Shown one piece after another: positions 42,303 through 63,958 of a stretch of DNA of 64,000 nt. The notes beneath the pieces are model-generated. The model had not been told where the DNA came from, did no database searches, and saw only the letters and a program-made list of their open reading frames with translations. The first letter of the stretch is position 1. The number at the start of each line of letters is the position of its first letter. The stretch is from Nitratireductor sp. B36 (lineage in GTDB: Bacteria; Pseudomonadota; Alphaproteobacteria; Rhizobiales; Rhizobiaceae), in contig NZ_JACKZY010000003.1 of NCBI RefSeq assembly GCF_020833685.1, positions 124,001 to 188,000 of the forward strand, read 5' to 3'. The position numbers and the translations under genes are program-made.

Positions 42303-42387
42303 TGGTGCCCAGGAGAGGACTCGAACCTCCACGCCTCGCGGCACACGGACCTGAACCGTGCGCGTCTACCAATTCCGCCACCTGGGC
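42303..42387 (-). tRNA. tRNA-Leu (CAG anticodon)
   Basis: On the minus strand an 85-nt cloverleaf begins GCCCAGGTGGCGGAATTGGT and ends CCTGGGCACCA with encoded CCA. The 7-bp acceptor stem is GCCCAGG/CCTGGGC. The D-loop contains GGTAGACGC, the anticodon stem-loop is CACGG-TTCAGGT-CCGTG (anticodon CAG), and a long class II variable arm and GGTTCGAGTCC T-arm follow. All features fit tRNA-Leu reading CUG. Confidence 0.97.
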
Positions 42388-52149: not shown

Positions 52150-52473
52150 TTAGGCAACGGCACCGTTGATCCACGCCGAAAGCGCCGTCTTGGGTGCGGC
52201 GCCGACCTTCATGTCGGCCACTTCGCCGCCCTTGAACATCATGAGGGTCGGGATCGAGCGCACGCCATACTGCGCGGCCAGTTCCGGGTTCTCGTCGATG
52301 TTCACCTTGGCGATCTTGACCTTGCCACCGAGCTCGGCGGCGATCTCGTCCAGCGCGGGCGCGATCATCTTGCACGGGCCACACCACTCGGCCCAGAAGT
52401 CGACAACCACGGGCTCGGACGCCTGCAGCACGTCGGACTGGAAATTGTTCTTGTCCGCCTTCACGGTGGCCAT
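52150..52473 (-). CDS. trxA: Thioredoxin
   Basis: Thioredoxin 1 reduces protein disulfides using electrons from thioredoxin reductase. The 107-residue protein has the active site [14 protein letters not shown] (Cys at about residues 32 and 35), the cis-Pro in [12 protein letters not shown] and the family length. I chose ATG 52471-52473 with AAGGAG 7 bp upstream; further upstream in-frame sequence is unrelated. It is 74 bp downstream of addA and ends in a strong terminator. Confidence 0.98.
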
Positions 52474-52547
52474 GGGAATTCTCCTTATCGGCAAATCTGT
52501 CACACCACATGTGGGGGTGGCGCGGGGTCGCGTCAAGCTCTGTTGTG

Positions 52548-55500
52548 TCACGCTCCCGTGAGTCGTTCAAGCGCCTCTGCCAGACGATCCTCGGGCACCG
52601 GCAGCAGAACCGGCGTTTCGGTGAACAGAAGCGCGGCCTCGACCCTGCGGCCGGGATATAGCGGTTTCAGGAGCTCCGCATAGAGCGCAAGCTGCGCGAC
52701 ATAGGCGGCGGGTGCTTCTTCCAGCGATTTTGGCGCGGGGCGGTTGGTCTTGTAATCGACGATCAGAACCGCCTCATCGGTAACAGCCAGACGATCGATC
52801 TTGCCGGAGACGGCGTGGCGGCGCTTGCCAAGCGTGAGCTCGCCCATGACGGAAACTTCGGCGCGGGACCCAGGCGCGAAGATGGGCGCGAAGCGCGTGT
52901 CCTCGAGGATCGCGCGCACCGAGTGCCAGACGGCCTGCCGCTCTTCGCTGCTCCAGGTGCCGCCCACACGGTCGAGATATCGACCGGTTGCCGCCTCACG
53001 CTCCTCCTGCGGGCACTCGGGCAGCAATTGCAGAAGCTTGTGAACCGCCAGACCGCGCTGGATGGCAAAGCCCGGCTTGCGCGCCTCGTCGAGAACCGGG
53101 GAGAGGGGAGAGGGGACCGGCTCGTAATCAGCTTCGATCAGAGCGCCAGCACGCGACGGCGAGAGCGGGCGCGGCAGGTCGACCGGCATGGGCGGCGGCG
53201 TGAGCAGGGCTTCGGGAAGCGCGGTTTCGGGCGCGGTCTCAGCGGGTTTCTCCGCCTCAGGCTTCACCGCCGGGGCATCGCTCACACGATAGCGATAGAC
53301 CGGTGCGCAGATTTCCGGGCTTGTCCGTTCCTCCACCCGGTCGGCCCCGGAAAGCGCGGCGCGCACAACATTGAGCCAGGTCAATTCCTGAGGTTCGCGC
53401 TGGCCATGATAGCCGCAGACGATGAGGCGGTCCTCGGCACGCGTCATGCCCACATAGAGGAGTCGGCGATATTCCTCCTCCGCCTTGATCTTCGCGTCGG
53501 CTTCAAAGGTGGCCGCCACCGTGTTGGAAACATCCTTGCCGGCGCGCCAGAGGAAACCCTTGCCCTTCCAGCCTTCGCCGCGCGGCGCGAAGGGCATGAG
53601 CTTGGGCAGATGCTGGGAGACGAAGGGCGCGCTGCCCGGATCGACCAGAAACACCACCGGCGCTTCGAGCCCCTTGGCGGCGTGAACCGTCATGATGCGC
53701 AGCTCGTCGCGCGTCTGGTCCATCTCGCGCTTGATTTCCGGCGCCTGCCCTTCAAGCGCCGAAAGCAGCGCTTCAAGCCCGTTCAGCCCCGCGCGCTCGC
53801 CGGCGAGTGCGAAGGAGAGGAACTCGTCGAGAATGTCGTTTGCCTCATGGCCAAGCCGGGCAACGAAAAGCCGACGCGCGCCCTCCCGCTCGCGGGTGCC
53901 CGTGAGAAGGCCCGCATAAAACTCGAAAGCCGGCTTGAACGCCGCCTCGTTCTGCCAGTTCTGCAGGGTCTCGACCATGCCGGCCACTGCCGGATCTTCC
54001 AGCGCCTGCGCGCGCATGGCGTCGAACAGCGGCACGGCGTGCCCGCGGTTCCAGGCCAGACGGAAGAGGCGTTCCTCATCCATGCCGAAGAGCGGGCTTT
54101 TCAGCACTGCTGCCAGCGAGAGGTCGTCATGCGGCTGGAGCAGGAAACGGCCAAGGGCAATCAGGTCCTGCACGGCGATGTGTGCGGTGAGCCGCAGGCG
54201 GTCCGCGCCGGCGACATCTATGTGACGGTTTTTCAGGCTGCGCGAGAGCGCGTGCACGAAACGGTCGCGCTTGCGCACGAGCACAAGCACATCGCCCGCC
54301 GTGAGGCGTTTGCCGGTGCCTTCGATGATCTCGCCATTGCGGATCCAGTCCTCGACGGTCTGTGCGATGGTTTCGGCCAGCCGCACGGCGGGTGCGGAGG
54401 CGTGGTCGATGGCTTCCGTCCAGTCTTCCGGCTCGTCCACCGCGACCGGCGCGATGGGCGACCAGACTTCCACATAGCCGGGCTGGCCCGCGCGAACGGC
54501 CAGATGTTCGATCGGCTCGGGATCGTGCGTCAGCCCCTGTGCCACATCGGCTTTCGAGAACACGAGATCAGCGGCGCGCAGCACATCCTCCGTGGAGCGG
54601 AAGGAATAGCGCAGGCGCAGGCGCTCGAAACGGCGCTCGACCTCGCGCACCTTTTTTTCAAAAGCGCGGCCGCTCTCGCCGAAGGCAGCCGGCTCCGCAC
54701 CCTGAAACGAATAGATGGACTGTTTTTCATCGCCCACGGCGAAGATGGTGCGCAGGAGGCCCTCGCGCGCACTTTCGCCGGCAAAGAACTCTTCCGCCAA
54801 AAGGCGCACGATCTGCCACTGCTCGGGGCTCGTGTCCTGCGCTTCGTCTATCAGCACATGGTCGATGCCCTTGTCGAGCTTGTACTGAACCCATGGCCCG
54901 GCATCGGCACGGGCCAGAAGCCGGATGGTGCGCATGATGAGATCGTTGAAATCGAGAAAGCCACGCGCGCGTTTCAGACGCTCATAGCGGGCGATCATGC
55001 CATCGGCGATGACAAGGGCCGCACGCGTTGCCTCCAGCATGCGGAAAAGCGCCACGCGGTCGGCGGCATTGCGGATTGCCTCCGCCGCCTCGCCATAGCG
55101 CTCCACAATGTCGGGCAGGGCAGTGCGCAGCGCCTTTTTGAACGTGCTTTCGCCATAGACGCCGCCATCGGCCTTCAAAAAGCCCTTGCGCAGATGGTCG
55201 AGCCGGCGCAGCGGGTCCGCCTCCTCGAAGGCGCGGCTGGCATCGGGCACGATGCTCTTCAAAACCGTTTTGGCGTCGACGGCCTCAGCCTCGGCCACGA
55301 AGGCACGAAACGCACCGGCATCGAAGCCCGGAAGCGGCCAGATGGAGGCGGCAATCGATGCTGCCGTGTCATCGGGTGCGAAATCGAATTCCTCGAACAG
55401 GGCGCTGTAGGGCACCGGGTCGTTGCCGATTTCATCGATAAAGGCGCGCAAGCCGTCGCGGCGGGCGATGATCTCGGACAGGAGCTCCTGCAAGCCGCTC

Positions 55501-56072
55501 TCGCCGCCGCGCTCCAGCACCTCGGCAAAGGCTTCGGCCAGCGCGCCATCCTCGCCAGCGGCACCGGACAGGAGATCGCGCCGCGCCTCGGCAAGAAGCG
55601 CCTCCTCCATCTGCGTGTCGAGCAGCTCGAAATGGCCGGCAATGTTTGCCTCCAGCGGGAACTGGTGCAGGATCGCCTCGCAGAAGGCGTGGATCGTCTG
55701 GATTTTCAGACCGCCCGGCGTTTCGAGCGCGCGGGCGAAAAGCCGCCGCGCGCGGGCGAGCTTCTCGCGGTTGGGCTCCTTGCCCTCCATCCTTGCGATC
55801 ACATCGGACAGTGCCTCGTCGGGCAGGAGGCTCCAGCCGGCAAGGTCGCGGAACACGCGGTTGGCCATGTTGGCAGCGGCAGCGCGCGTGTAGGTGAGGC
55901 AGAGGATCTTGGAAGGGTCCGCCCCCTGCAAGAGAAGCCGGATCACGCGCTGGGCAAGCACATGGGTCTTGCCGGAGCCCGCATTGGCCGAGACCCAGGC
56001 CGATGTGGCGGGATCGGCTGCAAGCGACTGCGCCTTGATCGTGTCCTCGGGGATCAAGGGAAACTTTTTCAT
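52548..56072 (-). CDS. addA: Double-strand break repair helicase-nuclease AddA
   Basis: AddA is the UvrD-type helicase and nuclease subunit of AddAB, which processes broken DNA ends for RecA. The 1174-residue protein has Walker [17 protein letters not shown] (residues 28-43), Walker B with [20 protein letters not shown], helicase motif [16 protein letters not shown] and a C-terminal PD-(D/E)xK nuclease motif GKIDRLAV...[10 protein letters not shown] chose ATG 56070-56072, which overlaps the addB stop by 4 bp (ATGA). It is the last gene before trxA in the minus-strand run. Confidence 0.97.
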
Positions 56073-59000
56073 TCGTCCCCTCCGCTTTCGCCCGCATCGC
56101 CACCGGCAGACCATTCGAGCACACGCGCCAGATGATCGTAATCGCCATCCACATCGCCCTCGCGGAAGGGCAGGACGCGCGAGCGATAGCCCGTCTCAGG
56201 CTTGTGATAATGGGCGAGAAGCTGCCCCAGCCGCTCCCATGCCTCTTCGGCCATGCCGGGCGCGGTCTTGTCGCTGTCCTTCATGCGAAGGATGGATTCA
56301 GGCACCACCTCGCCATTGGCCTTGAGCCGCACATAGGCAAGGTCGCCGGGCTCGGCGGGATCGATATCGGCGAACGCGCCGCGCTGAAGCAGCGCCGCTT
56401 CCAGCGCAAGCTGCGGGGAAAGAAGCGTGTGCGCCTGCCGGCGCGACGGCGAGGCGCCGGTCTTGTAGTCGAGGATTTCGGCGCTGCCATCGGCGCGGAT
56501 GTCGATGCGGTCGGCGCGGCCTGAAAGGGTGAGGCCGAGCTTTGCCACCTCGATGGCCGAGGCGCGAATTTCGGCATGGCGCCTTGCAATGCCTTCGGCG
56601 CGACCGCGCTCCCATTCGACGACGGAGGCCGCCGTGCGCTCGAAGCGCGGCCACCAGACCGTTGCCACATCCTGCGGGAGACCGGCTTCGGCAAAAAGCT
56701 CGCGGCCAATGGCGATCAGCCTGTCGAGCGCGTCGGGGGCAGTCGGATCCTCCACCTCCTTGATGAAGCGCTCCAGAACATCGTGAAAGAGATTGCCGCG
56801 TTCCGCGGCACCCGGATCGCGGATCAGCGGGTCGAGCGCGACAAGCGCCAGAATGCGTTTGGCATAGACGGCATAGGGATCGCGCCGCAGCGTCTCGATC
56901 TCGGTGATGGAGAAGCGCGTGGGGCGCGCCTCGACCGGCGGCGCAGGCTCGGGCCGGGGGGCGAAATCCTCGTCGGGCCTGTCGTCCAGAAGGCGCGCCC
57001 ATGCGACCAGCTCCCGGCCGCGGGCACGCATGGTTTCGGCGACTTCTTTGCCAGCAAAAGCCGTGAGGCGCTGCAGCCAGCGCGAAGCGACAGCCGGCGC
57101 ATCGCCGGCGCGGGCGGCGCGTGTCAGCACCACATTCTTCGTGCCCATCGCCATCATAAAATCATGCGCGGCCTGGCCGATGCGGCGCTCCGGCGGCTCC
57201 AGCGAAAGCTCGGCCTTCATCAGGCGCGACATGAAGCGGTCGGAGGAGGGAATGGCAGGCCAGGTGCCTTCATTCATGCCGCCCAGAACCATCGTGTCGA
57301 CATGCAGAAGCCGCGCTTCGAGCGTGCCCCAGATGGCCACGCGCCTGTCTGCGCCCATGGTGGGTTTCACCACCTCGGTGGCGATGAGCGCGTCAAAGAC
57401 CGCCGGCCACTCGGCGGCATCGAAGGGCAGGGTGGTTTGCGAACCCACCAGACCGCGCAGGAAGGCGGCCATGGCCTGTCCGCGCTCGCCGTCATAGTAG
57501 TTGGTGAGGCTGCCATCTTCGGACCGGCCCAGCGCTTCGAGAACTTCGACTGTCTTGCGCGCCATCTCGGGCACGCCGATGCCCGATTGCCCGCGAAGCG
57601 CAGCCAGTGGGCGCAGCGCCTCGACCAGGGCACCGAGCACGGCGCGCGCTTCGGCCAGTGCGGCGTCGTTGACACGCGGGAACCAGAAGGGCTTGCGCGT
57701 GTCGCGTTCAATCGCTCCCCAGCGTGTTTCAAACAGAGCATCGAGCGTGGTGATATCCGGCCGGCCCGTGCCACCGCGCAGCGCCACGAGCTCGATGGTC
57801 TCGGCGGCGCGGCGCACGCTGGCGCGCTTCAGCCCCAGCCGGAGCAATGGGTGCTTGAGGAGGGCGACCATGGCGATGGGTTCGCCGGGGCGGAACACGG
57901 TTTCGAGCAGCAGCCGTGCCAGCGTTGCCGGCGGGGTTTCGGCGAGCGGCGTGCCGCCGGAATCATCCGCCTCGATCCCGAAGCGACGCAGCTCCACCGC
58001 GACACGGCGCGCCAGACCGCGATCGGGTGTGACGAGTGCCGCCGTGGCGTTCTCGTCGGTCAAGGCAAGGCGCAGCGCAACGGCTATCGACAGCGCTTCC
58101 TCACGCTCGTTTGCGGTCTCGACCAGGGTCACGCCGGAAAGCGCGTCCCCTTCTGTCGCATCGGCTGCAAGCGCCTGATTTTCGAGCCAGGCATCCGTGG
58201 TTTCGGCAGGACGCAGGGTTTCGCTGACCAGTGCGCGGCGCAGGGCAAGCGGTGGGGCAGGCTCGCCAAGCTCGACCACCTCATCACGGGTGATGCCGAT
58301 GGCGGAAAGCAGCTTCTTCAGCCCTGCCTGCGGGTGGCCGAAGGCGGATGGCTCGTCCGCATCACCCACCGCCTCCCAGGCCCGTGCGTCGAGCCGCGTG
58401 TCGAGACCCGGCAAGACCACGGCACCGTTTTCCAGCCCGGCGATCGTCGCCAGAAGCCGCGCTGTCGCCGGAATGGAGCCGGTGGAGCCGGCAGCGATGA
58501 CCGGGCCTTTGTGTGCATGAACCTTGAGGCGTGCGGCCTCTGCCGCCAGCATCGCGTTTCGATGCGCGGCGGGGTTGGAACGGTCGAGTTCCTCCAGCAG
58601 TTTTGGCCAATGGGCGGTGACGATCTGCAGGAATTCGAGCGTCACCTGCCACCAATGCGCCAGCGCATCGGGCGCGAGGCTGGCGAGCTTCGTCCAGTCG
58701 GCTTCCTCGGTTTCGATCTCGTCCATCAGGCCGGCGAGATCGCGCGCGAGCCAGATGGAATCCGACGCCGAAGCCGGCACCACGACACCTTCCTCAAACA
58801 ATGCCGCCACATGGCCGGGCAGCCGCGCCTTCCACGCCTGCACGAGCGGTGCCAGCAGCAGGATGCGATCCAGCGCCTCTATCGGCGGGGCGAGATCGAG
58901 CGCGGAGGCGCCTTCCGTATCGAACAGCGCGGCCTCCTCATCGAACTCGCCCAACGGGCGAATGACGGGCAGGATGGCGGACTGGCCGTCGAGCTTTCGA

Positions 59001-59194
59001 AGCAGGACATCGCGCAGGGCGCGGGCGGCGCGGCGGGTCGGCAGATAGATGGTGACATCGGCCAGCGCCAGCGGATCGCCCGTGTGCCGAAAACCCGGCA
59101 CGAGCCTGCCTTCAAACAGGGCTTCGACAAGCGTCTCCAGAAAGCCGACGCCGGGGGGAATGGAAAAGACGCGGCTGGTCTCTTTAGCCGACAT
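56069..59194 (-). CDS. addB: Double-strand break repair protein AddB
   Basis: AddB is the second nuclease subunit of AddAB, with an inactive helicase-like N-terminal half that binds DNA and recombination hotspots. The 1041-residue protein has the C-terminal PD-(D/E)xK motif LSGRADRIDIRADGSAEILD followed by YKTG (about residue 935). The Fe-S cysteines of Firmicutes AddB are absent, as is typical of the alphaproteobacterial type. I chose ATG 59192-59194; the preceding GTG at 59197 would sit on its ribosome site (GGGAAG). It overlaps murU by 11 bp and addA by 4 bp. Confidence 0.96.
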   Translation of the reverse strand: MSAKETSRVFSIPPGVGFLETLVEALFEGRLVPGFRHTGDPLALADVTIYLPTRRAARALRDVLLRKLDGQSAILPVIRPLGEFDEEAALFDTEGASALDLAPPIEALDRILLLAPLVQAWKARLPGHVAALFEEGVVVPASASDSIWLARDLAGLMDEIETEEADWTKLASLAPDALAHWWQVTLEFLQIVTAHWPKLLEELDRSNPAAHRNAMLAAEAARLKVHAHKGPVIAAGSTGSIPATARLLATIAGLENGAVVLPGLDTRLDARAWEAVGDADEPSAFGHPQAGLKKLLSAIGITRDEVVELGEPAPPLALRRALVSETLRPAETTDAWLENQALAADATEGDALSGVTLVETANEREEALSIAVALRLALTDENATAALVTPDRGLARRVAVELRRFGIEADDSGGTPLAETPPATLARLLLETVFRPGEPIAMVALLKHPLLRLGLKRASVRRAAETIELVALRGGTGRPDITTLDALFETRWGAIERDTRKPFWFPRVNDAALAEARAVLGALVEALRPLAALRGQSGIGVPEMARKTVEVLEALGRSEDGSLTNYYDGERGQAMAAFLRGLVGSQTTLPFDAAEWPAVFDALIATEVVKPTMGADRRVAIWGTLEARLLHVDTMVLGGMNEGTWPAIPSSDRFMSRLMKAELSLEPPERRIGQAAHDFMMAMGTKNVVLTRAARAGDAPAVASRWLQRLTAFAGKEVAETMRARGRELVAWARLLDDRPDEDFAPRPEPAPPVEARPTRFSITEIETLRRDPYAVYAKRILALVALDPLIRDPGAAERGNLFHDVLERFIKEVEDPTAPDALDRLIAIGRELFAEAGLPQDVATVWWPRFERTAASVVEWERGRAEGIARRHAEIRASAIEVAKLGLTLSGRADRIDIRADGSAEILDYKTGASPSRRQAHTLLSPQLALEAALLQRGAFADIDPAEPGDLAYVRLKANGEVVPESILRMKDSDKTAPGMAEEAWERLGQLLAHYHKPETGYRSRVLPFREGDVDGDYDHLARVLEWSAGGDAGESGGDE

Positions 59195-59921
59195 CACTCT
59201 TCCCGGCGTGCTTCATCACCACCGCTTCGGCAGGGGCGATGGCGTCCGGCGTGCCGACGGTGATCCACGCGCCGTCCATCCTCATACCGAAAAGCCGGCC
59301 CTTGGCCTCGGCGGCATCGAAATAGGCGTTGAGAGACTGTGGTTCGTTGCCGGCACCGGCAAAGATGCGCGGGTGAAGCACGATCGCGCCGGCATAGATG
59401 ACGCCGCCTTCCACGCCGCGATCACGGGTGAGGCGGCCTTGTGCATCCATTCGGTAATCGGTCGAGCCGGAATGACCCGTCGCCTGTTCGGTGTCTGCAA
59501 CCATGAGGAGAATATCCATGGTCTCAGGCTCCCAGGCAAGGGCCATGCGCTCGAGATTGGACGTGCCAGATTCAAGCCAGAACGTATCGGCATTGAGAAT
59601 GAAGAAGGGCGCATCACCAAGATGCGGGAGAGCGCGGATGACGCCACCGGCCGAATCCAGAAGCTCTGCGCGTTCATCGGAAATGACGATCTTCGGCGCG
59701 GTGCGGCCTGCCAGATGCGCTTCCATCTGGTCGGCGAGGTAATGCACGTTCACCACGGCCGTTTCGACCCCGACACGCTCCAGCATGTCGAGCGCCCTGT
59801 CGATCAGCGTGCGTCCGGCGACCTTCACCAGCGGTTTGGGCATGGTGTCGGTGATGGGGCGCATGCGCTTACCGAGCCCGGCGGCCAGCACCATCGCCTT
59901 CTTCGGGACTGTTCCGCTCAT
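59184..59921 (-). CDS. murU: N-acetylmuramate alpha-1-phosphate uridylyltransferase
   Basis: MurU converts MurNAc-1-phosphate and UTP to UDP-MurNAc, the second step of the AmgK-MurU peptidoglycan recycling route known from Pseudomonas. The 245-residue nucleotidyltransferase has MVLAAGLGKRMRPITDTMPK near the N-terminus, the metal-binding LNADTFW and the EGGVIYAG and VGTPDAI segments. It directly follows the AmgK domain-bearing gene with a 4-bp overlap and overlaps addB by 11 bp. The pairing with AmgK supports MurU over other sugar nucleotidyltransferases. Confidence 0.9.
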   Translation of the reverse strand: MSGTVPKKAMVLAAGLGKRMRPITDTMPKPLVKVAGRTLIDRALDMLERVGVETAVVNVHYLADQMEAHLAGRTAPKIVISDERAELLDSAGGVIRALPHLGDAPFFILNADTFWLESGTSNLERMALAWEPETMDILLMVADTEQATGHSGSTDYRMDAQGRLTRDRGVEGGVIYAGAIVLHPRIFAGAGNEPQSLNAYFDAAEAKGRLFGMRMDGAWITVGTPDAIAPAEAVVMKHAGKSDVG

Positions 59922-61426
59922 GCCTCGTCTCCGCTCAGGAAGCCGGCCTCTTCATAGAATGTGCGCAGCTCGTCCAGCACGGGATGGCCCATGGCGCGGC
60001 GAAGATAGGCGCGGATGCGCGGCAGGTGCTTGATGTAGAAAGGCTTGTGATCGCGCTGCTCCAGCCGCACGAAGGTGCCGAGCAGCTTGGAATTGCGCTG
60101 GGTGGCGCAGATCGCATAGGCCTCGTCGAACGCTTCGCGATCGAACGGCCCCTGCTCGGCGCGGGCAGCGCAATAAGCCTCCACCACAGCGCGTTCCAGC
60201 GCTTCGGGCATGGTCACGCGGGCATCGAGCGCCAATGAGGCGACGTCATAGGCTGCCGGCCCGCACACCGCATCCTGCAAATCGATCAGCCCCAGCCGGT
60301 CGAACCCTTCGCGCTCCGCCCGCCAGATCAGGTTTGGCGAATGAAAATCGCGAAGGACGAGATTTTTCTCGAAGTCTTCAAGGCGTGCGAAGAGCCGGTT
60401 CCAGCGTTCCATATAGCCCGCGCGCTCCGCATCGTTTGCGGGACGTCCGGCCATGAAGGGCATGTACCAGTCCGTTAAGAGGCTCACCTCGATGCCGAGC
60501 GCCTCGCGATCATAAGGCGGCAGTTCGTGAACGAGTTGATCGGTGACCGGCATCTCTTTCGGCCAGGCATCACGGTGGAGGGCTGCCAGCAGGCGCGCCG
60601 CCGCCACATAGCGTTCGGCCACCGGCTCACCTTCGGGCGAGAGAAACGGCGCTTCGCCCAGATGCTCTGTGAGGAGTAGCCCCGTTTCCAGATCCTGCGC
60701 ATAAACCTCATAGGCCGAGAAGCCGCGGGCGCGGATGGCGTTTGCCATGGCAACGGAGGCGGCGACGGACTGCGCCAGGTGCGCGATGCGGCTATAGGGA
60801 CGCCCGCACTCAAGCAGCGGCTCATCACGGCGCTCCGGCGCATTCATCAGGATACGGCGGGCGCCCGTGCGTGTCGTCACGGTCTCATAGGCCCGCAGTG
60901 AAGCATCGCCCAGAAGGAAGGCGCGATGGGCGCTCAGCTCGCCGGAATTGTTGAGGAAATCGCGAATGGCGAAGCTGCGCTCGAGCCGAAGCATCGCTTC
61001 CTCGGGCCCCGCCACCACCGCAAGCCGCCCTTCACCGCTGTCGTGCAGCTCAATGCGGATCGCATCAGCAAAGCGCTCGCCAGCACACTCGGGCCATTCG
61101 ACAAGTGCAACGCCATCGTCCGCCATCTCGAACAGGCCGAGCTCTTCCAGCTCGTCGGGATCGGCCAGCCGATAGAGATCGAAATGATGCACGGGGATGC
61201 GCGCTTCGTAGCTCTGCACCAGCGTGAAGGTGGGGCTTGGCACCTCCAGCTCCGGATTGTCGGCCAAGGCGCGGATGATGGAGCGGGCAAGTGTCGTCTT
61301 GCCGGCACCGAGATCGCCCTTCAGGGCCAGAATATCGCCGGGCCGCAGCGCCACGGCGATATCCTCGCCGAAAAGCGTGGTTGCGTCTTCATCCGGCAGG
61401 AAGCGTTCCAGAACGCGTGCTGTCAT
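59918..61426 (-). CDS. TsaE-AmgK fusion (tRNA t6A ATPase plus MurNAc/GlcNAc anomeric kinase)
   Basis: A 502-residue two-domain protein. Residues 1-150 are TsaE, the P-loop ATPase needed for t6A37 tRNA modification: Walker A GDLGAGKTTLARSI (about 38-51), VPSPTFTLVQSYE, HHFDLYRL and VALVEWPE. Residues 155-502 are an aminoglycoside-phosphotransferase-like kinase matching AmgK, which phosphorylates MurNAc at C1: RDFHSPNLIW is the catalytic loop and LIDLQDAVCGPAAYDVASL the metal-binding region. The fusion is recurrent in alphaproteobacteria. Overlap with murU (ATGA) ties the kinase to peptidoglycan recycling. It is followed upstream by divL after 9 bp. Confidence 0.93.
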   Translation of the reverse strand: MTARVLERFLPDEDATTLFGEDIAVALRPGDILALKGDLGAGKTTLARSIIRALADNPELEVPSPTFTLVQSYEARIPVHHFDLYRLADPDELEELGLFEMADDGVALVEWPECAGERFADAIRIELHDSGEGRLAVVAGPEEAMLRLERSFAIRDFLNNSGELSAHRAFLLGDASLRAYETVTTRTGARRILMNAPERRDEPLLECGRPYSRIAHLAQSVAASVAMANAIRARGFSAYEVYAQDLETGLLLTEHLGEAPFLSPEGEPVAERYVAAARLLAALHRDAWPKEMPVTDQLVHELPPYDREALGIEVSLLTDWYMPFMAGRPANDAERAGYMERWNRLFARLEDFEKNLVLRDFHSPNLIWRAEREGFDRLGLIDLQDAVCGPAAYDVASLALDARVTMPEALERAVVEAYCAARAEQGPFDREAFDEAYAICATQRNSKLLGTFVRLEQRDHKPFYIKHLPRIRAYLRRAMGHPVLDELRTFYEEAGFLSGDEA

Positions 61427-61435
61427 ACGGTTTGG

Positions 61436-63958
61436 CTACTCTGCGGCGACCCGCGCCTGTGTCGGCGCGGAGGGGAACCGGCAGGTTACCGTGGTTCCGC
61501 GCCCTTCGCCCGTGTCGATGTGGACCGAGCCGCCATGCAGCTCAACGAAGCTCTTGACGATGGAGAGGCCAAGCCCCGCACCACGCCTGCGCCCGCCATT
61601 AACATGCGGCTCGAAACGTTTGAAGATGGTTTCCAACACATCGGGTGCCATGCCCGGCCCATCATCATGCACGCTGAATTCCACCGCATCGTCATATTGC
61701 CGCGCAGAAAGCCGGATCGTGCTGTGCTCGGGCGCATAATTGGCCGCATTGGAAAGCAGATTGAAGAGCACCTGACGCACGCGGTTTTCGTCTGCATGGA
61801 AAACGAGCGCGGCATCGTCCATTTGCACGTCGAGCCGGATCTGGTGTTCGCGCAGGCGCTCCGATATGAGCCCGGCCGCAGCCTCGACCATGTCGCCGAC
61901 CCTTACCTCGCCGATTTCCAGTTCCATGATGCCGGCGTCAACCGTCGCAAGGTCGAGAATGTCATTCACGACAGTGAGGAGCACGGAGGAGGAGGACCCT
62001 ATGTGATCCAGGTACTCACGCTGCTTCTGATTGAGCGGACCCGTTTCCGGAAGGTTCAGGAGCTCGGTAAAGCCAATAATGTTCGTCAGCGGTGAACGCA
62101 GCTCATAGGAGACATGCTGCACGAAATCGTTCTTGAGCTTGTCTGCCTTCTGCAGCGCATCGTTCTTCTCCTTCAATGCGCGTTCCACGTTCACGCTGTC
62201 GGTCATGTCGACAAAGGTGATCATCACCTGGCCGTTGGGCAGCGGAATCGTGGCATGGCTCAATACCGACCCGTTAGAGAGCTCCACCTGACCATGCTGG
62301 CTGCGCCGCTCGTCATCGAAGCCAGTGACAGAGGCAACAAAATTGTGCCACGGGCTGTCCTTGGCCAGTGGGTCGCACACCGCACGGATGTCGGCAATAT
62401 GTGCCTCGGGCGTGACAAGCTGGTCAGGCAGGTTCCAGATGCGCTGGAAAGCCGGATTGGACAAGCGCAGGCGTCCATCCGGGCCGAACACCGCGACGCC
62501 CTCGGTGAGATTGTCCAACGTTTCGCCTTGAACGCGCATCGCCGCATTGTAGCGGCTCTCGAGATCGAACTTCTCCGTCAAATTCTCGAAAACCCAGGTC
62601 ACGCCACCCTTGGGCTGCGGATTGGCGATCACGCGGATCGTGCGTCCGTCGGGCAGGTGCCACCAGTGTTCCTGCGGTTTCATGCTGCGATAGGCGGACA
62701 GGAGCCCTTCCTTCCAGCGCCGCCATTCGGGCTGTTCGGCCAGCGTACCTTCGCTGCGTAGCCGGTCGAGCAGCAGAGCATTGTCGGGTCTGCTTTCGAG
62801 GAAAGGGGTATCGAGATCCCAAAGCTTCTGGAACGACTGGTTGAAGAAGCGCAGCTTCTGGTTCTCGTCGAAGATCGCCACCGCCGTTGTGAGCTGGTCG
62901 AGTGTGTCGGAATGACTCTGGACCGTGCTTTCAAATTCCCGGCGGATCGTTTCCACTTCGCTGATGTCCGCCGCGATGCCTGCCGAGCCATGACCGCCAG
63001 CATAATCGGTAACCGCAAAAACGCGCCGCTCGCCATGAACAACGGCGGACAGGGATTGCCGGAACACCTCATTGGCTTCGCGATGACGGCTGATGATTTC
63101 CTCCCGCGCCGACATGGGCAGGAACTCGACCTGTTCGCGCAGAACGGCATCACTCGTGGGGGCATCCACCGCACCGGTGAACGCACGGTTGACCCAGGCC
63201 AGTTGTCCGGCCTTGTCGCGGAGCCAGAACGGCATGTCGAGCGCGTCGAGCAGGCCCAGAAGCGTGGCACGCTCAGACAAGAGATTGTCCTGCTCAAGCT
63301 GAAGACGTGCATGTTCTTCACGCACGCCGGCAAGCGAGACGAACCGTAGAACCGTGTGCTGGGCAGATTTCCGCCCCTGAGCCTCCAGCATCGTGCCGGA
63401 TCTCGTTTCGATGGTCAGGTCGAAATTCTCTCCGGTCTCGCGCAGGGTGGCGAGTGCGCGGTCGAGAGCGGAGGCGGACCGCGGCATCATCCAACGTCCA
63501 AATGCCAGGAACGCGGAGCGCTCATCCGGCGCACCGCACCCAGGCGCAAGATCGCCCACAATCGCCGGCTTGTCCGAGCCGCCGCCCCAGACGACCGCGC
63601 GTTGATCCTTCAGATTGAGAAGAGCCTCGGAGCGGCCGAGTGCCCCGCTCAGCTCTGCGATCCGTGCACGGAGTTCAAGATTTTCAGAAGCAATGCGGGC
63701 GCGCTGACGGATCAACCAGATGGCAGAGAGAAATGCTGCGCCCATGACACCGGCAAAGACGGCGATCTGAATGACTTCGAGAGCGGTGACCGAAACGCCC
63801 GGCGCAAGCTGCGCAGCCGCCTGCGCGGCGGCCACGGTTGGCACGGCCACGCCCGTCGTCAGCGTCAGCAACCGCATCAGTCCCCGCACGATGCCCACTT
63901 TGCGCTGTCGGCCCTTAGGGCCCGTAGATCCGCCGTTCAGCGGGTCCAGCCCCGGCAT
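61436..63958 (-). CDS. divL: DivL-like pseudo-histidine kinase (His replaced by Tyr)
   Basis: An 840-residue protein with an N-terminal hydrophobic stretch (LTLTTGVAVPTVAAAQ), a transmembrane helix (about residues 58-85), PAS-like domains across about residues 230-590, then a HisKA-like helix and an HATPase domain. The phosphoacceptor box reads FVQHVSYELRSPLTNIIGF: Tyr618 (codon 62105-62107, TAT) stands where histidine kinases have His, as in Caulobacter DivL. ATP-binding motifs are present (NLLSNAANYAP, DDGPGMAP, GAGLGLSIV). DivL acts allosterically on CckA to control CtrA phosphorylation. I chose ATG 63956-63958 (AAGGA upstream); TTG 63991 is in frame, and the frame continues past the window edge. 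Confidence 0.92.
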   Translation of the reverse strand: MPGLDPLNGGSTGPKGRQRKVGIVRGLMRLLTLTTGVAVPTVAAAQAAAQLAPGVSVTALEVIQIAVFAGVMGAAFLSAIWLIRQRARIASENLELRARIAELSGALGRSEALLNLKDQRAVVWGGGSDKPAIVGDLAPGCGAPDERSAFLAFGRWMMPRSASALDRALATLRETGENFDLTIETRSGTMLEAQGRKSAQHTVLRFVSLAGVREEHARLQLEQDNLLSERATLLGLLDALDMPFWLRDKAGQLAWVNRAFTGAVDAPTSDAVLREQVEFLPMSAREEIISRHREANEVFRQSLSAVVHGERRVFAVTDYAGGHGSAGIAADISEVETIRREFESTVQSHSDTLDQLTTAVAIFDENQKLRFFNQSFQKLWDLDTPFLESRPDNALLLDRLRSEGTLAEQPEWRRWKEGLLSAYRSMKPQEHWWHLPDGRTIRVIANPQPKGGVTWVFENLTEKFDLESRYNAAMRVQGETLDNLTEGVAVFGPDGRLRLSNPAFQRIWNLPDQLVTPEAHIADIRAVCDPLAKDSPWHNFVASVTGFDDERRSQHGQVELSNGSVLSHATIPLPNGQVMITFVDMTDSVNVERALKEKNDALQKADKLKNDFVQHVSYELRSPLTNIIGFTELLNLPETGPLNQKQREYLDHIGSSSSVLLTVVNDILDLATVDAGIMELEIGEVRVGDMVEAAAGLISERLREHQIRLDVQMDDAALVFHADENRVRQVLFNLLSNAANYAPEHSTIRLSARQYDDAVEFSVHDDGPGMAPDVLETIFKRFEPHVNGGRRRGAGLGLSIVKSFVELHGGSVHIDTGEGRGTTVTCRFPSAPTQARVAAE

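Follow-up and report, generated by a model that had tools for sequence, protein, structure and literature searches.

A DivL ortholog with tyrosine at the phosphoacceptor position and its gene neighborhood in Nitratireductor sp. B36

The DNA analyzed here, referred to as the window, is a stretch of 64,000 nucleotides from Nitratireductor sp. B36 (contig NZ_JACKZY010000003.1, positions 124,001 to 188,000). It carries close to its end a gene for a PAS-rich protein with HisKA and ATPase domains, which we name divL, followed downstream by a fused tsaE-amgK-like gene and by murU-, addB-, addA- and thioredoxin-like genes on the same strand (Table 1). The divL frame opens with an ATG at 63958 and ends with a TAG stop at 61436-61438; an alternative TTG start 33 bases upstream of the ATG would give a protein of 851 aa. 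The codon 62107..62105 reads TAT and encodes residue 618, located inside the H-box (FVQHVSYELRSPLTNI). The ATP-binding boxes are all intact (N, NLLSNA; G1, DDGPG; F, IFKRFE; G2, GAGLGLS). Pfam detected two PAS_7 stretches and additional weaker PAS matches. An AlphaFold model of low quality (pLDDT 53, pTM 0.28) suggests some four PAS-like units and, at the N-terminus, a long helix, and judging from an N-terminal anchor read by eye the protein is probably membrane-anchored. The only tRNA gene detected in the window encodes tRNA-Leu (cag) and is located at 42303-42387.

Table 1. Features of the divL locus, in window coordinates.
Feature	Position	Strand	Description	Basis
divL	61436..63958	minus	840 aa, PAS-rich pseudo-histidine kinase	ORF, Pfam, best PDB match 4q20 DivL, tree
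TAT codon	62105..62107	minus	Tyr618, equivalent to C. crescentus DivL Tyr550	sequence; alignment to 4q20
HisKA (DHp) domain	61931..62134	minus	residues 609-676	Pfam PF00512, E 4.9e-16
HATPase_c (CA) domain	61469..61792	minus	residues 723-830	Pfam PF02518, E 1.5e-28
PAS_7 domain	62564..62902	minus	residues 353-465	Pfam PF12860, E 7.3e-27, the stronger of two stretches
tsaE-amgK-like fused gene	59918..61426	minus	502 aa	Pfam TsaE 11-130, APH 171-423; TIGR00150 over cut-off, both AmgK models under
murU-like gene	59184..59921	minus	sugar-1-phosphate nucleotidyltransferase	Pfam NTP_transferase, NTP_transf_3; NF045697 235 bits, under cut-off of 370
addB-like ORF	56069..59197	minus		ORF; named by eye and Brucella gene order
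addA-like ORF	52548..56114	minus		ORF; named by eye and Brucella gene order
thioredoxin-like ORF	52150..52551	minus	WAEWCGPCK	ORF; read by eye

The genes of this block are tightly packed: 9 bases separate divL from tsaE-amgK, tsaE-amgK overlaps murU by 4 bases and murU overlaps addB. The models for AmgK stayed under their curated cut-offs (186 of 500 and 100 of 550 bits), as did those for MurU (235 of 370 and 150 of 250 bits); both proteins are homologs of these enzymes with a putative function in AmgK-MurU recycling. A terminator-like hairpin of 13 pairs followed by five T is located downstream of ahcY on the minus strand, about 100 bases past the window end (L101:7664-7697). Of the 52 ahcY-divL intervals scanned, that of the Brucella locus L043 included, 31 carry a hairpin of this kind, with 0.7 expected from single-base shuffles, many of these loci being close relatives and thus not independent. 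The general terminator scan detected two terminator-like sites with 1.9 expected, therefore the case for this terminator rests on its place and its conservation. No sigma-70-like promoter was detected from the end of divL to ahcY (0.6 expected). Since the genes abut or overlap and the terminator-like hairpin separates them from ahcY, divL would head the unit divL-tsaE/amgK-murU-addB-addA-trxA.

To identify the gene, its protein was compared with solved structures. The best match was DivL of Caulobacter crescentus (4q20, 141.6 bits; runner-up 107.9), and in the alignment Tyr618, Arg621 and Ala671 correspond to Tyr550, Arg553 and Ala601 of that protein. Arginine was present at the Arg621 column in all 81 Tyr-type rows of our alignment. 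A careful tree was calculated from the kinase region of 95 sequences with the acceptor column omitted; it separated 86 DivL rows, including the window protein and 4q20, from nine ordinary kinases at 100/100, with a bootstrap that had not fully settled. This tree did not contain 17 of the 112 rows of a quick tree, namely ten long-branch DivL rows and seven kinases encoded by neighboring genes. With all 112 rows, as in the quick tree, the DivL label requires two changes instead of one: the ordinary kinases are split over two positions, and the DivL row of G071 groups with the long branch of the neighboring kinases. The genome of strain B36 contains a single full-length DivL match (1881.7 bits), the next of the 27 matches reaching 135 bits; the seven other kinases compared (out of the 26 further matches) all have histidine at the aligned acceptor position. 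A gene-position study assigns two divL homologs to many Rhizobiales genomes (PMC8116508); one was detected here. A Nitratireductor record encodes a DivL 99% identical to that of the window, and a scan of a contig database returned nine loci, eight of which are DivL.

These data also bear on the possibility that the protein is an ordinary PAS sensor kinase, unrelated to DivL, that lost its histidine independently. The best 25 of the 80 NCBIfam matches would agree with such an origin: they are other kinases and signaling proteins, all below their cut-offs, and a DivL model is not among them. Against it, the careful tree groups the window protein with 85 other DivL rows, among them C. crescentus DivL, the tyrosine is present in every order locus fetched (see below) and the gene neighbors are the same throughout the order sample. 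Independent loss of the histidine in an ordinary kinase was rejected on the careful tree, and we regard this origin as highly improbable. A pseudogene or a sequencing error was rejected in view of the open frame and of the tyrosine in the 58 other order loci fetched. The gene is almost certainly a DivL ortholog, a PAS-rich pseudo-histidine kinase without the usual histidine phosphoacceptor. A preliminary description of this DNA had already read it as DivL, with tyrosine in place of the HisKA histidine and intact ATPase motifs, and had proposed alignment with Caulobacter and Sinorhizobium DivL and with ordinary PAS kinases; a phylogeny placing it among canonical kinases with independent histidine loss would have counted against it. 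The tyrosine codon and the motifs were confirmed and the identity is supported, the strand (minus) having gone unstated.

The partners of DivL are encoded in the same genome. ChpT was detected with PF10090 over its cut-off. DivK and CtrA were found with 79% and 83% identity, respectively, to query sequences that we take to represent these proteins; the only PDB match of the DivK protein at E 1e-20 is DivK 1m5t. For CckA the best PDB matches are 5idj, whose entry says only Histidine kinase, and 5idm, entered as Cell cycle histidine kinase CckA. That all four partners are encoded here supports the DivL assignment.

The window protein and C. crescentus DivL share a DHp-CA module preceded by PAS domains, the acceptor tyrosine in the motif VSYELR, and arginine and alanine at the positions that bind DivK~P (4q20; PMC4211667). 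They differ in length (840 aa versus 769, the last residue of the published constructs) and in Phe630, which occupies the position of Caulobacter Tyr562 and counts against the assignment. In the Caulobacter protein, mutants of R553 and A601 disturb DivK~P binding; the Y562A exchange disturbs it in vitro with mild effects in vivo (PMC4211667). By analogy, the kinase fold of the window protein would serve as a sensor that binds DivK~P on the DHp face around Tyr618, Arg621 and Ala671. Its PAS region would then shift CckA between the kinase and the phosphatase state, and the state of CckA would set the CtrA~P level through ChpT. From the published Caulobacter work we infer that the window DivL binds DivK~P, controls CckA and lacks autokinase activity; its intact ATPase motifs are compatible with nucleotide binding. 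Sinorhizobium meliloti DivL acts with CckA in the rhizobial CtrA pathway (PMC11500502), and DivL and CckA are also treated in a report on H. neptunium (PMC7200025).

Another reading makes the protein an active tyrosine kinase with Tyr618 as its autophosphorylation site. C. crescentus DivL was reportedly proposed to be a tyrosine kinase in a 1999 study, and the intact ATP-binding motifs would fit such an activity. This is contradicted by the Caulobacter data, since there DivL had no autokinase activity in vitro and bound an ATP analogue weakly, and its essential functions did not require a phosphorylated DHp domain (PMC4211667). The same source describes growth and shape defects for the Y550H variant, which has an autokinase activity stimulated by DivK~P. 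We therefore consider a tyrosine kinase very unlikely and retain the sensor role for the window DivL.

To determine how far the tyrosine and the gene order are conserved, 60 genomes of the order including the window's own were searched, and 59 loci were fetched. The genome left out (G015, 1.1 Mb) gave a weak kinase match only (E 1.2e-8); this member of the same family is probably without DivL. Tyrosine occupies the acceptor column in all 59 loci, the window's included, which is more than chance, and likewise in Brucella pseudogrignonensis (L043); one further member of the order, taken from the class sample (G129), has phenylalanine. In 57 of the 59 loci a tsaE gene follows divL in the same orientation at a distance of no more than 700 bases. 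In G003, where the divL frame is broken, tsaE lies at 1082 bases by one measure and at 13 by another, and in G053 the contig end is reached before tsaE can be assessed; hence tsaE is present in 58 of 58 assessable loci. The divL frame appears in pieces in two genomes of the same genus, G003 (L049) and G004 (L105). Wherever an AmgK-like domain was found in the order, it shares a single ORF with TsaE (56/56); in the class sample this fusion occurs in one of 26 loci, that of G129, which belongs to the same order. Upstream, a same-strand gene that we take to be ahcY, in line with the Brucella gene order, is present in 51 of the 59 loci, and murU was found in 53.

For the class, the DivL profile was searched in 123 genomes including the window's own, with a match at E 1e-40 in 98. 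From 68 genomes, 70 loci were fetched. The 29 matched genomes left out had best matches of at most 271.4 bits and may include short or diverged DivLs; the fetched genomes G165 and G105 scored below that value. Seven of the 70 loci were dropped: two ordinary kinases, placed so in the quick tree (L201, L202), a fragment with tyrosine (L204) and four DivL-like proteins in which the kinase region is missing (L196, L198, L199, L200). Among the remaining 63 loci, 13 have a same-strand tsaE no more than 700 bases away and 16 have it at 700-4000 bases, and five are cut by a contig end. The tsaE gene was not found in 29 within the fetched flank, which is mostly about 4 kb, and a very divergent TsaE might escape detection. 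In 12 loci roughly 1.2-2 kb separate divL from tsaE (L144, L146, L150, L151, L153, L154, L156, L158, L160, L173, L180, L195). The longest same-strand ORFs in these gaps vary by genome, and several appear to be shadow frames of a gene on the opposite strand; one ORF in the L180 gap appears glyoxalase-like by eye.

The neighborhood itself has been described before. In Brucella abortus, ahcY, divL, tsaE, a nucleotidyltransferase gene, addB, addA and trx-1 are co-transcribed within the 16-gene bvrR/bvrS operon, which is conserved in part of the class (PMC9491525). The order of these genes is the same as at our locus, a gene annotated as mannose-1-phosphate guanylyltransferase taking the place of murU; in Brucella only, predicted genes are listed in the ahcY-divL and addA-trx intervals. 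Co-transcription of the Brucella set was shown by RT-PCR, whereas in the window organism the terminator-like hairpin follows ahcY. No such hairpin was found in L043 of B. pseudogrignonensis, the only Brucella locus that was scanned, in agreement with the RT-PCR result from B. abortus. At least the divL-tsaE part of the Brucella block is present in nearly all order relatives searched. Orthology, sequence, conserved residues, the presence of the partner genes and gene order were established in this analysis.

The linkage of divL to tsaE, amgK and murU could reflect a functional coupling of cell cycle control with peptidoglycan recycling, as the preliminary description had suggested. Its DivL identity and the tsaE linkage stand, and the adjacency it had proposed to survey extends to all assessable order loci; together with murU in most loci and with abutting or overlapping genes that suggest joint expression, this speaks for a coupling. 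However, the block equally carries TsaE (t6A), AddAB-like and thioredoxin-like genes, and since it thus also contains tRNA modification, DNA repair and thioredoxin genes the argument for wall metabolism is weak. In addition, tsaE was not found in 29 of the 63 class loci (mostly about 4 kb of flank, divergent TsaE possibly missed), the AmgK and MurU matches are under their cut-offs, and order and co-transcription were already published (PMC9491525). Conserved order alone does not demonstrate a functional link. A special coupling of cell cycle and cell wall was rejected on the mixed content of the block and on the class loci in which tsaE was not found; we judge it unlikely, and this part of the earlier claim lacks specific support. 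What remains is an ordinary DivL in an ordinary location, its hallmark tyrosine and its neighborhood both already published for relatives.

Across the class the tyrosine is less uniform. Among the 63 DivL kinase regions of the class, 47 have tyrosine at the acceptor position and 16 another residue (three H, two each F, V and T, and one each C, S, G, Q, L, K and E). Strong divergence of the kinase region makes the column less sure for several of these 16, and boxes are broken in G114, G170, G167, G132 and G080. The minimum number of acceptor changes, counted without direction, is 15 for 15 non-Tyr rows in the quick tree and nine for nine in the careful tree. DivK was matched at E 1e-25 in 44 of the 47 Tyr-type genomes, in eight of the 16 non-Tyr genomes and in none of the three genomes in which the only DivL detected has no kinase region; the matches in G071 (53%), G167 (50%) and G061 (44%) are of weak identity. 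A DivK match is thus missing in 8/16 non-Tyr versus 3/47 Tyr genomes. This association is not significant when paired on the tree, where only two pairs lie on starred branches. The pattern fits two published reports in which DivK and the kinase domain of DivL are described as lost together (PMC2877005; PMC9430884). The latter source also mentions long DivLs with degenerate kinase domains in some Rhodobacterales and short DivLs in the remaining ones. Tyr550 is described as conserved in alphaproteobacterial DivL homologs, with alanine in Magnetospirillum magneticum as the exception (PMC4211667), and about 1% of sequenced histidine kinases carry a different acceptor residue (PMC5361649). In view of these published cases, departures from tyrosine are not wholly new.

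Histidine is present in three DivL orthologs, L176 (G100), L145 (G152) and L186 (G110), and all three genomes have kept DivK (74-76% identity). In G100, ahcY is located 193 bases upstream and tsaE, amgK and murU downstream; in G152 and G110 the standard neighbors are absent within the fetched flanks. G100 and G152 appear to have kept all four ATP-binding boxes (N, G1, F, G2); the G110 protein has a deviating N box, and its later boxes are unaligned. Neither a His-type DivL nor a TsaE-AmgK fusion beside divL is mentioned in the titles and abstract openings of the open-licence papers listed. One tentative and rather doubtful reading is that the DivL tyrosine is not fixed in the class and was replaced many times, often where DivK is gone, with histidine in three separate places of the tree where DivK is kept; these His forms may be working DivK kinases or phosphatases, in which case the change from kinase to pseudokinase could be undone.

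For the window, the outcome is one of annotation: the gene should be named divL. The hairpins suggest that the long operon known from Brucella is, in related genera, frequently interrupted behind ahcY. The variation of the acceptor residue across the class may be a less ordinary side result, and the only part that perhaps merits the time of specialists. The class survey lists DivLs that depart from tyrosine and offers modest help in understanding how a sensor arose from a histidine kinase; if the reading of the His forms is true, evolution could pass from kinase to pseudokinase and back, and natural variants would allow this to be tested.
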